Shown one piece after another: positions 33,941 to 37,557 of a DNA stretch of 64,000 nucleotides. The stretch spans positions 62,001 through 126,000 of the forward strand of contig NZ_JAJLJH010000012.1 in assembly GCF_023231945.1 (NCBI RefSeq), in the 5' to 3' direction. The stretch is from Scleromatobacter humisilvae (GTDB taxonomy: Bacteria > Pseudomonadota > Gammaproteobacteria > Burkholderiales > Burkholderiaceae_C). The notes beneath the pieces were generated by a model. That model worked only from the letters and a program-made list of their open reading frames with translations, was not told where the DNA came from and made no database searches. The position numbers and the translations under genes are program-made. The stretch's first letter is position 1. Each line of letters begins with the position of its first letter.

Positions 33941-34164
33941 GGAACGCGGTGGATGACGGGGCGGTGGATCTCGGGGCGGCCGGCAGCGGACGACTGATCG
34001 ACGCAGGCGATTCTCGCCTCTTGCGGATTCGTCGCCCGCACACGCAGGCTCGTCGGTCCACGCGCGACTTCGTCGGATGCACGTTCCCGCTGGACGACCC
34101 GCGTCCTAGGCTCTGGCCATGGCGTGTCTTTCACCGCCGACGAGCCGTGCAGCAAGGAGAGATC

Positions 34165-34611
34165 ATGCAAGCAATCCGTCTTCAGACCCGACGCCTGGGC
34201 GCTGCCATCTTGCTGGCGACGCCGTTGTGCGCCGCTGCCCAGGCCACCGGAAATGACCTGTCCCAGGCCGTCGAGATCGACAGACGAGCGCCTGCCCAGG
34301 AATTGCGGCGCGATGTCACCAGCGTCTGCCCGAACATCCTGGCCGACCTGCCAGACGACCTGGCCAGCGCCTGGAAGGCGGTCGGCAAGACCGGAACCGT
34401 GATCGTCAACTTCACGCTCGACGGCGATCGCGTGCGCGACATCCGGGCGCTGTCGGGCCCGCGGCTCTACGCCCGCTGGGTGCGCTCCGCCATGCAGGAC
34501 ATGGACTGCCACTCGGACCGCCCGCAAAGACAGGCCTTCCAATTCGAGATCCGCTTCGTCGACATCTACGAGAAGCCGGAACACGGCGCAGTGGCGGTGG
34601 TGACGCAGTGA
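34165..34611 (+). CDS. Secreted protein with TonB-C-like fold, 148 aa
   Basis: Exported small protein. The start ATG at 34165 has AAGGAGAG upstream and gives a signal peptide ending LCAAAQA near residue 23. The rest has CPNILADLPDDL and GTVIVNFTLDGDRVRDIRALSG...WVRSAMQDMDC, resembling the C-terminal domain of TonB-like energy transducers but with no membrane anchor. Two Cys may pair. It lies 51 bases before the LytS-type kinase gene on the same strand and could be co-transcribed with that system, perhaps as an envelope partner; this is inferred. Confidence 0.65.
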   Translation: MQAIRLQTRRLGAAILLATPLCAAAQATGNDLSQAVEIDRRAPAQELRRDVTSVCPNILADLPDDLASAWKAVGKTGTVIVNFTLDGDRVRDIRALSGPRLYARWVRSAMQDMDCHSDRPQRQAFQFEIRFVDIYEKPEHGAVAVVTQ

Positions 34612-34662: not shown

Positions 34663-35751
34663 ATGTCGCACGAGGCATCGATCATTCCGCAAAGAGCGAT
34701 GCCAACCGGCATCGCCTGGCTGCGTGTGATGGGACTGGCGGGGGTCATCACCCTGGCCGAGTTCCTCGGCCCCACGCTGGCCTGTTTCGTCGTCGGAGGT
34801 ACCGCGCTGAAGAACCAGTTGGCCGTGCTGCCGACCATGGTGCCGCAGATCTTTCTTGGCAACGCCCTGTCGTTCGCTGTTCTCGTCGTGGGCTACCGTT
34901 GGATACCGCGCGGCGGCCGCGGCCACGCCGCGGGCCTGCTGGCGCTCGTGCTCGTCCTCACCGTGGCCGGGATGGGGCGCTTCTTCGCGATGCGGATCGG
35001 CAACCAGGACGGCGCATCCGATGGATGGACACCCGCGTTCGCACTCCAGTTCAACCTGGTGTTCGCGTTGTTGTGCACTCTTGCATACGACCACATGCGA
35101 CGCATGCGCGCGGCAACGGACGCCGTCCACGCCTCCGTGCTGCAGCGCGTCGCGCTCGAACGTGAATTGGCCGGCGCGCAATTGCAGTTGCTGCAGGCAC
35201 AGGTCGAACCCCATTTCCTCTTCAACACGCTGGCCAACCTGCGGCGCCTGGTGCGCACGGATCCCGCCGCCGCGCGCGCGATGCTCGCCGACCTGATGCG
35301 CTACCTCGAGGTGGCGCTGCCGCGCCTCCGCGACGAGCACAGCACGCTCGACCGCGAGCTCGGGTTGGTGCAGGCCTACACAGCGGTACACCAGGTCCGG
35401 ATGGGCGCGCGGCTGCGCACCGAGTTCGACGTTCCCGATGAACTCGCAAGGCGCCGCGTGCCACCCCTGGTCTTGCTGACCCTGGTCGAGAACGCCATCA
35501 AGCATGGCGTGCAGCCATTGGCCGAAGGCGCTCTTGTCAGCGTCGCCGCTCGATCGGACGGCCGTCACCTCACGCTGGTCGTGGCCGACACCGGGCGCGG
35601 CATGGGCAGCAGCTGCGGCGGTGGCACCGGGCTGGCCAATCTGCGCGCCCGGCTCGGCGCGCTGCACGGCGCCGCCGCGTCGCTCAGCCTGGAAGTGAAC
35701 GAGCCGCGAGGCCTCATCGCCACCATCGTGCTGCCGGAGGCCGTGGAATGA
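34663..35751 (+). CDS. LytS/YehU-type sensor histidine kinase, 362 aa
   Basis: Membrane sensor kinase that should phosphorylate the LytTR regulator two genes downstream. Four hydrophobic helices lie before residue ~150; a coiled linker leads to the His_kinase block QAQVEPHFLFNTLANL with phosphoacceptor His184, then the ATPase with N-box LTLVENAIKHG, ADTGRGMG and GTGLANLRARL. The start is uncertain: ATG 34663 has GGGAAG 12 bases upstream; ATG 34651 abuts that purine run; a TTG at 34627 is also in frame. The stop overlaps the next gene's ATG (ATGA). Codon use is less GC-biased than in flanking operons. Confidence 0.88.
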   Translation: MSHEASIIPQRAMPTGIAWLRVMGLAGVITLAEFLGPTLACFVVGGTALKNQLAVLPTMVPQIFLGNALSFAVLVVGYRWIPRGGRGHAAGLLALVLVLTVAGMGRFFAMRIGNQDGASDGWTPAFALQFNLVFALLCTLAYDHMRRMRAATDAVHASVLQRVALERELAGAQLQLLQAQVEPHFLFNTLANLRRLVRTDPAAARAMLADLMRYLEVALPRLRDEHSTLDRELGLVQAYTAVHQVRMGARLRTEFDVPDELARRRVPPLVLLTLVENAIKHGVQPLAEGALVSVAARSDGRHLTLVVADTGRGMGSSCGGGTGLANLRARLGALHGAAASLSLEVNEPRGLIATIVLPEAVE

Positions 35752-36845
35752 CCGCTGCAATCGCGCCATCGATGCCGCCGATCCTGGAATGTATTCGAGA
35801 CATCGCGCGCCAATGGCGTTGGCGAACGAGCGCGTTGGCCGTCCTCGTCGGCGCCGCCACGCTGTTCAATGCAGGCGTGCCCATCGCCTTCCCGCCGAGC
35901 GACGCACACCAGGCTGCCGTGGCGCTTCTCTACAACGTGCTGCAATTCGGTTTCCCCTTGGTCTTCGCGGTGCTGGTGGCGGATCGCGCGGTCGACCGTG
36001 GCGTGTCCGCCCTGTGGGCCTACGCGCTGGCCGTGATCCTGACCGGCCAGGCCGGCGTCTGGATCGTCGCGCGGCTCCTGTGGCCGGTGCTCGGCAAGGC
36101 CGCCTGGTGGGGGATCGATGACGACCTGACGCAGATTGGCGCAACGCTGCTGTTGCACGGCCTGGGCGTCGGGGCCTACGCGCAGTGGCGCGGCGGACGG
36201 GTTGCGCGGGAACGCCTGCAGGCCGCGGAGCGGGATCGCGCCATTGCGCAGCGTCAGCTCATTGCTTCGCGGCTGCTTGCCCTGCAGGCCCGCGTCGACC
36301 CACAACTGCTGTTCGATGCTCTCGGGCGCATCGATGCGGCACTGATCAGCGAATCCGGCCTCGCTGATCGCCAGCTGGCCGACCTCATCAGCCTGCTGCG
36401 CGCGATGCAGCCGTCCGTCCAGCAACGCGCCTCGACCCTCCAGCGCGAGTTGGCGCTGCTCGAAGCCCAGGCCCGCGTGCGTGCCGCGCCAGGGCAGCAG
36501 CCTGAGCTCCTGCACGTCGAGGTCAGCGACGCCGCTGCGCGCGCGCGCCTGGCGCCGCTGGTGCTGTTGCCGCTTCTTCGCTGGCTCACGACGCTGCGCC
36601 CTTCGGGTTGGCGCATCAGGGCGATCGTGACGGGCCACCGTTTGATCATCGACATCGCGACGACGGACGGCAGCGCGGCAGCCCTGCGAGATGCAAGGAT
36701 GCACGCCGCCGACATCGACGAGCCGCGTCAGCGACTCATCGCCGTGCACGGTTCGAACGCGGTGTTGCGAGCCGATCCGGCGTCCCTGCGCCTGTTCATC
36801 GAGGTCGACGCCGAATATGACGAGCATCCTGATCGCCGAGGATGA
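35748..36845 (+). CDS. Degenerate LytS-type kinase (pseudo-histidine kinase), 365 aa
   Basis: Same layout as its upstream neighbour: about four membrane helices in the first ~145 residues, a basic coiled linker, then a His_kinase-like block. The key residues are lost: the aligned segment reads QARVDPQLLFDALGRI, with Gln186 in place of the phosphoacceptor His, and the N-box Asn region reads LLPLLRWLTTLRPSG instead of VENAIKHG; no glycine-rich ATP lid is seen. The reading frame is fully open with no stop or frameshift, and it is coupled at both ends (ATGA upstream, 29-base overlap downstream), so it is kept as a protein. Likely a heterodimer partner or decoy sensor. Confidence 0.82.
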   Translation: MTAAIAPSMPPILECIRDIARQWRWRTSALAVLVGAATLFNAGVPIAFPPSDAHQAAVALLYNVLQFGFPLVFAVLVADRAVDRGVSALWAYALAVILTGQAGVWIVARLLWPVLGKAAWWGIDDDLTQIGATLLLHGLGVGAYAQWRGGRVARERLQAAERDRAIAQRQLIASRLLALQARVDPQLLFDALGRIDAALISESGLADRQLADLISLLRAMQPSVQQRASTLQRELALLEAQARVRAAPGQQPELLHVEVSDAAARARLAPLVLLPLLRWLTTLRPSGWRIRAIVTGHRLIIDIATTDGSAAALRDARMHAADIDEPRQRLIAVHGSNAVLRADPASLRLFIEVDAEYDEHPDRRG

Positions 36846-37557
36846 GGCCCTTCTTGCCGCCGAGATCGGGGACGAGCTGGCCCGGATCTGGCCGGCAGCC
36901 CAGGTCCGCGAGATCGTGCACGACGGTCACGCAGCGCTGCGGGCGATCGAGCAGCACCGCCCGCAGGTCGTGTTCCTGGACGTGCAGATGCCTGGTCTTT
37001 CAGGACTCGAAGTCGCACGACTGGCGTCGCCGTGCGCCCACATCGTCTTCATCACGGCCTTCGACCAGTTCGCCGTGCAGGCATTCGACGAAGGCGCCGT
37101 CGATTACCTCCTGAAGCCGCTCGACCCCGCGCGCCTGGTGCGTGCGGTGCAGCGCGTCAAGCGGCGTCTGGGCCAGGCGCCTGCCGATCTCGGCGGGCTG
37201 ATGTCGCAGATCCAGCAGCGGCCCCAGAACGAGCCGCTGCGCTGGATCACCGTGCTGCGCGGCCGCGAGCTTCAGCTGATCACGATCGAAGATGTCTGCT
37301 ATTTCCGCGCCGACAGCAAATACGTCGAAGTGGTCACCGAGAGCGCCAATGCACTGATCAGCCTGACCCTCAAGGAGCTGTCGCAGCGGCTCGACCCCCA
37401 CATGTTCTGGCAAGTCCATCGCAGCACGATCGTCAACCTGAATGCCGTGCGCAGCGTGAACCGCGGCTTGGCTGGCAAGCTCATGATCAGCCTGAAGGAA
37501 CGCCCGGAACGCCTGGAGGTCAGCGCGGCCTACGCGCACCTCTTCAAGCAGATGTAG
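36817..37557 (+). CDS. LytTR-family response regulator, 246 aa
   Basis: DNA-binding output of the kinase pair. The receiver domain has acidic residues E9/D10 (IAEDEA), phosphoacceptor Asp55 (VVFLDVQMPG), FITAFDQFAVQAF and KPLDPARL with the conserved Lys. Residues ~140-246 form a LytTR DNA-binding domain (ITIEDVCYFRADSKYVEV; LDPHMFWQVHRSTIVNLNAVRSV). The start ATG at 36817 lies inside the end of the pseudokinase gene, indicating coupled translation. Targets are unknown; the secreted protein gene at 34165 is a candidate by proximity. A 195-base gap without recognisable genes follows, before the convergent AraC gene. Confidence 0.92.
   Translation: MTSILIAEDEALLAAEIGDELARIWPAAQVREIVHDGHAALRAIEQHRPQVVFLDVQMPGLSGLEVARLASPCAHIVFITAFDQFAVQAFDEGAVDYLLKPLDPARLVRAVQRVKRRLGQAPADLGGLMSQIQQRPQNEPLRWITVLRGRELQLITIEDVCYFRADSKYVEVVTESANALISLTLKELSQRLDPHMFWQVHRSTIVNLNAVRSVNRGLAGKLMISLKERPERLEVSAAYAHLFKQM

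Follow-up and report, generated by a model that had tools for sequence, protein, structure and literature searches.

An ancient histidine pseudokinase retained between a LytS-type kinase and a LytTR regulator in Burkholderiales

Genes and proteins of the operon

The window analyzed here, a stretch of 64,000 nucleotides from Scleromatobacter humisilvae (GCF_023231945.1, contig NZ_JAJLJH010000012.1, positions 62,001 to 126,000), harbors a three-gene operon on the forward strand. It encodes a LytS-type (PF06580) histidine kinase, a second sensor that resembles the kinase and lacks its catalytic residues, and a response regulator with a LytTR DNA-binding domain; all coordinates below are those of the window. 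This second sensor represents a pseudokinase of ancient origin that is under selection, and the three proteins constitute a conserved LytTR signaling operon.

The first gene (34663-35751) encodes an intact membrane kinase of 362 amino acids. Its N-terminus consists of four helices, taken as membrane helices, and the motifs VEPHFLFNTL, LVENAIKHG, ADTGRG and GGTGLAN are all present. Pfam assigns PF06580 with 69.2 bits and HATPase_c with 28.4 bits. The third gene (36817-37557) encodes the regulator, in which a receiver domain (Response_reg, E-value 1.1e-18) and the LytTR domain (4.8e-23) are combined within 246 amino acids.

Between both lies the pseudokinase gene (35748-36845), which starts with ATG and runs through 365 codons without any internal stop; the open frame described in the initial annotation of this DNA has thereby been confirmed. 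The same annotation proposed start-stop coupling to both neighbors. This is true for the kinase, with which a four-nucleotide ATGA overlap is shared (35748-35751), but not for the regulator, where a 29-nucleotide overlap is found instead, reaching from the regulator ATG at 36817 to the pseudokinase TGA at 36843-36845.

Within the pseudokinase the motif VDPQLLFDAL stands in the place of VEPHFLFNTL of the kinase, and Gln186 (codon 36303-36305) occupies the position of the phosphoacceptor His. The N-box Asn is gone as well. Both losses had been seen before and hold, and in addition the DxGxG and GxGL motifs are absent. PF06580 is the sole Pfam family recognized, with 22.8 bits in the window, below the cut-off of 25.2, and with 26 bits, above it, in a search of the whole genome; a Pfam match to HATPase_c was not obtained. 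The genome contains 13 PF06580 matches, of which the pair in the window are the only adjacent ones.

A structural model of the pseudokinase (mean predicted local distance difference test score 89.5, 23 sequences) displays four N-terminal helices (approximately residues 25-147, 35820-36188), taken as the membrane region, and a long helix running into a region that resembles the dimerization and histidine phosphotransfer (DHp) domain. Within these DHp-like helices (36267-36413) the core is conserved and the phosphoacceptor face is altered. A C-terminal alpha/beta domain follows (residues 226-356, 36423-36815), a degenerate catalytic domain without the nucleotide-binding boxes. Its closest fold is GanS (6swk; Z 13.0, root mean square deviation 5.5 over 170 residues), followed by VanS (8dvq; Z 12.2, 2.9 over 122) and, with Z 11.2, by 4fpp, a phosphotransferase whose own catalytic domain is dead. 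A sequence-based structure search returned GanS as the only match. The list of structure matches scarcely spans the membrane part and is uninformative on it. According to the model, the dead catalytic domain retains the GHKL fold. The earlier remark that no ATP-lid is seen is hence correct at the level of motifs, but the domain as such persists. PF06580 was matched by all 23 pseudokinase members at an E-value of at most 0.1 (best 8.8e-17) and HATPase_c by one of the 23 (0.079); the pseudokinase shares its descent with PF06580 kinases.

Conservation and descent of the pseudokinase

For a comparison across relatives, loci were chosen by similarity to the pseudokinase or the regulator of the window, and some genomes contribute more than one locus; the counts are therefore not prevalence figures. 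Seven loci with identical pseudokinase proteins (L063, L065, L071, L073, L074, L079 and L083) were dropped as copies, leaving 71 non-redundant loci. The three-gene order is conserved in 54 of these; the others comprise 12 loci with kinase and regulator, two with pseudokinase and regulator, two with kinase and pseudokinase, and a single kinase standing alone.

In a search of 399 family genomes with the regulator, each of the 39 best-scoring places (E-value at most 9.8e-72) adjoins a pseudokinase; among these closest matches, loss of the pseudokinase gene alone was not observed. Of the 39, 38 carry kinase, pseudokinase and regulator, including a doubled cassette (L060) and a locus with an additional regulator (L138), and the remaining one (L058) has pseudokinase and regulator only. 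Among the 15 places ranked below these, 14 were examined (all but G341), giving four triads and ten plain kinase-regulator pairs. The doubled cassette has the order kinase-pseudokinase-kinase-pseudokinase-regulator, and both of its pseudokinases lack the His (Val and Met).

Searching the same 399 genomes with the pseudokinase at an E-value of 1e-14 gave matches in 13 genomes, that of the window included, from 11 genera; outside of its own genome the matches are 31-44% identical. A scan of named genomes used one peptide pattern, which detects only copies with that motif, and gave 24 loci. Of these, 21 are Burkholderiales loci with pseudokinases, from Inhella, Roseateles, Pelomonas, Mitsuaria, Rhizobacter, Rivibacter, Rubrivivax and metagenome-assembled genomes, and the remaining three (two from Gilvimarinus, one from a Proteobacteria metagenome-assembled genome) contain His-bearing kinases only. 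The latter (L084, L085 and L086) are single, AlgZ-like kinases with His and N-box Asn and without DxGxG and GxGL. A profile search of the order with A1 gave 116 of 399 genomes at 1e-30, which is no prevalence figure since ordinary kinases are caught too; among 20 regions picked from this list, one (L164) carries a pseudokinase triad.

The overlap between kinase and pseudokinase amounts to four nucleotides in 40 of 59 cases, ten in eight and one in six, partly by construction, since the start nearest to the kinase stop was chosen. Among the flanking genes of 26 close loci (flanks of 4-6 kb, among the 40 clusters listed) none is as widely common as the cassette itself; some flanks are common to the Roseateles group (up to nine loci) and others to Inhella together with L077 (three loci).

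The His position of 59 pseudokinases is occupied by Gln (24), Ala (19), Glu (6), Asp (3) and, once each, by His, Leu, Val, Met, Ser, Lys and Arg. An N-box-like motif is found in none of the 59, and D- and G-box-like motifs in one (L081). The His is thereby lost in 58 of 59 and the N-box in 59 of 59. Orthologs with both residues intact were not encountered, which refutes a recent lesion. The upstream sensor carries His and N-box in all 57 adjacent sensor pairs. Since the presence of His and of an EN N-box was the criterion for calling a sensor a kinase, His in 70 of 70 kinases holds by definition, whereas the qualification of the upstream sensor in every tandem pair does not, and neither does the Asn four residues after the His (H+4), likewise found in 70 of 70. 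At H+4, the pseudokinases replace this Asn of the HFLFN motif by an acidic residue in 50 of 59 cases (Asp 32, Glu 18; further Asn 3, Gly 2, Arg 2, His 1 and Ala 1). The position is thus under a new constraint. The most kinase-like pseudokinase, L081, has Lys at the His position and has lost the N-box, with the D- and G-box-like motifs being kept; it is a possible intermediate.

In a tree of 94 chosen DHp-catalytic segments, constructed by a quick method, a branch with a support of 96 (Shimodaira-Hasegawa-like approximate likelihood ratio test) has all 36 included pseudokinases on the same side. Triad kinases cluster together (support 90), and the pseudokinase subgroups mirror the kinase subgroups. 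The pseudokinase branches are long and a long-branch effect is possible; even so, a single origin is favored by the common position of the gene. The distances among kinases correlate with those among pseudokinases, with r 0.943 (300 pairs) and r 0.965 (351 pairs), which speaks for joint inheritance and not for contact. For 13 loci of the Roseateles group, the ratio of nonsynonymous to synonymous substitution rates (dN/dS; Nei and Gojobori method, NG86) amounts to 0.40 in the pseudokinase, compared to 0.51 in the kinase; this method probably underrates dS at high G+C. One branch and one gene position over dozens of loci, together with this ratio, bear out the view that the gene is maintained and not decaying. 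A recent lesion or pseudogene has been ruled out by the conserved triads, the residue survey, dN/dS and the tree.

Conservation is not evenly distributed along the protein. Mean pairwise identities were calculated for a close group, to which the window belongs, and for a distant group, leaving out loci without a pair as well as L081, L062, L137, L139 and L152. Within the close group (25 pairs) the pseudokinase has 0.40 in the membrane part, 0.55 in DHp and 0.42 in the catalytic domain, compared to 0.28, 0.69 and 0.61 in the kinase. The corresponding values of the distant group (27 pairs) are 0.35, 0.57 and 0.42 for the pseudokinase and 0.39, 0.76 and 0.64 for the kinase. The catalytic domain of the pseudokinase has thus come down near the level of its membrane part, and DHp stands out. 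In the close group only, conservation of the membrane part is higher in the pseudokinase than in the kinase; for the Roseateles-group loci, the membrane region dN is 0.27 in the pseudokinase versus 0.63 in the kinase.

Within DHp, 28 positions have one residue in at least 90% of the kinases, of which the pseudokinase keeps nine and loses 19 (57 rows each, that is 57 of the 59 pseudokinases, in ungapped windows that may slip beyond about +20). The nine, L-7, A-5, P-1, L+2, L+6, L+27, L+31, P+36 and E+48, are mostly Leu, Ala and Pro and look like a helical core. Among the lost positions are H0, N+4, A+7, R+11, L+12, T+15 and Y+30, and the latter five are retained in 11-26% of the pseudokinases. 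In EnvZ-type kinases, several of their equivalents contact the regulator; by analogy, the lost positions may be read as regulator contacts.

A possible heterodimeric sensor and its alternatives

Retention of the dead copy beside kinase and regulator in many relatives suggests that it contributes to the function of the sensor instead of being a mere remnant. We propose a heterodimeric sensor, in which the pseudokinase would be the non-catalytic sensing subunit, and assign to this a probability of about 0.6. Here, kinase and pseudokinase would pair via their DHp helices, resulting in one catalytic, His-bearing and one non-catalytic subunit per sensor unit, to which the pseudokinase would add a membrane region of its own for sensing. 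Autophosphorylation would take place in the kinase, which would pass the phosphate on to the LytTR regulator, which in turn may bind tandem GCTTCGTCGG-like sites and control its own operon.

Several observations weigh against this proposal. The kept DHp core suits a homodimer of the pseudokinase equally well, and co-inheritance as well as the correlated distances are explained by shared ancestry alone. In the distant group, the membrane part shows no higher conservation in the pseudokinase than in the kinase (0.35 versus 0.39). Furthermore, the close form is patchy, with the 13 of 399 family genomes mentioned above, and at an E-value of 1e-14 it was detected in none of the three congeneric genomes, one of which (G002) carries the distant form (L062). 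The L058 locus (G223) is pseudokinase-regulator without an adjoining kinase, and no more than 37-45% identity is reached by the closest kinase matches in the rest of the genome. Conversely, L061 and L081 are kinase-pseudokinase loci, at which the regulator search found no regulator. Finally, one pseudokinase (L050, the same record as L071) has a His, accompanied by Asp at H+4 and lacking the N-box.

A more far-reaching version, an obligate asymmetric sensor with a single His per dimer, membrane input by the pseudokinase and the small, secreted TonB_C-like protein encoded upstream in the same, self-regulated operon as ligand or feedback element, is considered less likely than not.

Among the alternatives, the pseudokinase might be an accessory membrane modulator that alters the kinase by membrane contact and uses its DHp core for a homodimer instead of a DHp heterodimer. 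The core would be kept equally in a homodimer, and conservation of the membrane region within the close group agrees with this view. A precedent is RocA of group A Streptococcus, a membrane pseudokinase which, in the passages cited, interacts with CovS in the membrane and modulates this separate kinase, its putative His being dispensable (PMC7028121). Direct counter-evidence is not at hand, and sequence cannot tell the two apart; being less specific than pairing via DHp, the modulator is regarded as improbable.

A second alternative takes up the signal-titrating decoy that had been offered beside the heterodimer from the beginning. Here, the DHp face of the pseudokinase would bind the LytTR regulator and sequester it, or dephosphorylate it faster, with the acidic H+4 in the place of Asn. 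The best argument for it is this H+4 position, constrained to a new kind of residue: 50 of the 59 pseudokinases have Asp or Glu, compared to Asn in 70 of 70 kinases. Two pseudokinase-regulator loci without an adjoining kinase, L058 and L076, fit as well, although L076 starts at a contig end. Against this, A+7, R+11, L+12, T+15 and Y+30 are relaxed, and the loss of this kinase-type surface would have to be explained. Because the DHp core is kept and many kinase-fixed positions are relaxed, the heterodimer is the better fit of the two, and a decoy or phosphatase appears unlikely. A decaying duplicate kinase without function would agree with the lost His, N-box and G-boxes and the PF06580 score under the cut-off, but the single branch and gene position, the dN/dS of 0.40, the 39 of 39 best regulator loci with a pseudokinase and open frames with invariant columns exclude decay for the family.

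In textbooks, a histidine kinase is a homodimer and contains two His. The Fas system of group A Streptococcus has a ComE-like regulator, FasA, which is of the LytTR class, and its sensors belong to the HPK10-type kinase family. DivL and RetS belong to other DHp families, and to our knowledge neither is encoded in an operon with its partner and a regulator. CovR falls outside the LytTR class, and rocA is not known to belong to a kinase-pseudokinase-regulator operon.

The closest known system is FasBCA(X), reported in 2025 as a three-component system (PMC12675982). As described in the cited part of that report, FasB and FasC form a heterodimer in the two-hybrid assay, and FasC has been proposed to be a pseudokinase and sensing partner with a dispensable kinase domain. 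The initial annotation had regarded the present layout as undescribed; this cannot be upheld, since FasBCA has the same order of kinase, proposed pseudokinase and ComE-like regulator, with two membrane sensor-like proteins for one regulator, in addition to the two-hybrid evidence for FasB-FasC pairing. The layout is therefore known, and the family described here represents a new, more degenerate variant. FasC keeps His246, which is needed (PMC12675982), in contrast to the loss of His in 58 of 59 pseudokinases here. Furthermore, the Fas sensors have six predicted transmembrane helices and the Fas system drives a small RNA, whereas here four helices are modeled in PF06580 proteins and conserved repeats precede the operon itself. 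A paper on LytTR systems with a histidine pseudokinase of this family was not found in the open-licence literature searched.

AlgZ/AlgR and YpdAB likewise combine a LytS-type kinase with a LytTR regulator (PMC4064291, PMC4847170). Both are described in the cited passages with one kinase and no pseudokinase, in contrast to two sensors per regulator here. G-boxes are not identifiable in AlgZ according to the same passages, whereas its H-box and the Asn of its N-box are kept; in the present operon, every box is found in the kinase and none in the second protein. A catalytically inactive pseudo-histidine kinase acting on a separate kinase is also known from Caulobacter, where DivL acts on CckA, and a sensor heterodimer from Pseudomonas, where the sensor kinase RetS pairs with GacS and inhibits it, RetS also dephosphorylating the D1 site of GacS (PMC12189002, passages cited).

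The family is anciently fixed, belongs to another kinase family and occurs in a phylum far from Streptococcus, which would make sensing by a kinase together with a pseudokinase a recurrent design and not an oddity. Its natural variants can be used to ask whether one His per dimer is enough, what causes the acidic H+4 and which half reads the signal.

Upstream gene and LytTR-type repeats

Beyond the initial annotation, a gene for a secreted-looking TonB_C-like protein and LytTR-type repeats are new here. The first gene of the cassette (34165-34608, forward strand) encodes a small protein of 147 amino acids, putatively related to the TonB C-terminal domain. It combines a TonB_C-like core with two conserved Cys and a start that resembles a signal peptide as judged by eye. 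Among 56 loci with both sensors, 17 have a relative directly 5' of the kinase gene, all of them among the 25 loci of the close group, so that in most of this group a fourth, probably secreted protein joins the operon. The gene was not found at L057, L059, L060, L061, L072, L080 and L081, and L050 is cut by a contig end. Weak PF03544 matches were obtained for eight of the 17 members (best E-value 0.013), the window's protein not being among them, and single members match unrelated families equally weakly (DUF2125, 0.0064; DUF4658, 0.011). The profile of the small proteins matches TonB 1xx3 of the PDB at 2.2e-4, and its nine best chains are all TonB. A role as ligand, feedback element or output is possible.

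Upstream of this gene, three putative LytTR-type half sites are present on the forward strand: GATTCGTCGC (34026-34035), with two mismatches to GCTTCGTCGG, GGCTCGTCGG (34047-34056), 21 bp past the first, and ACTTCGTCGG (34067-34076), 20 bp past the second. The half-site pattern has three matches in the window, compared to a mean of 0.22 after shuffling. Tandem GCTTCGTCGG-like repeats with a period of 20-21 bp occur in 16 of the 17 small-gene promoters, and in the 17th (L051) sites were found 41 bp apart; among random stretches of the same 17 loci, a mean of 0.19 and a maximum of three carry repeats. For 37 other stretches upstream of the operon, mostly from the distant group, the pair test is positive in three, and the word TTCGTCGC occurs in 24 (random mean 2.4, maximum 8).

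LytTR regulator sites have been described as repeats of 9-11 nucleotides with a spacer of 11-13 nucleotides, and the 10-nucleotide direct repeats with their 21-bp period fit this geometry (PMC4847170, passage cited). The repeat core TTCGTC resembles the AlgR consensus CCGTTCGTC, as given in the cited part of PMC4064291. With such repeats lying before the operon, autoregulation by the LytTR regulator is likely.

Searching the window's own genome with the pattern gave 19 matches, compared to four for the reversed pattern, and a stricter pattern gave 14 matches in seven of 11 triad genomes, four of them at the cassette. A conserved target beyond the operon was found neither in these genome searches nor in the promoters of P0003 homologs. 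P0003, a secreted-looking protein of 173 amino acids without a Pfam match, is preceded in the own genome by four spaced repeats (C3:312,6xx; L196:2605-2680). Homologs are present in nine of 14 genomes searched, and P0003 was rejected as a conserved second target, since a site pair precedes none of the nine. Within the window, a spaced TTCGTC/CTCGTC pair, one of the 19 genome-wide matches, is located at 2314-2341.

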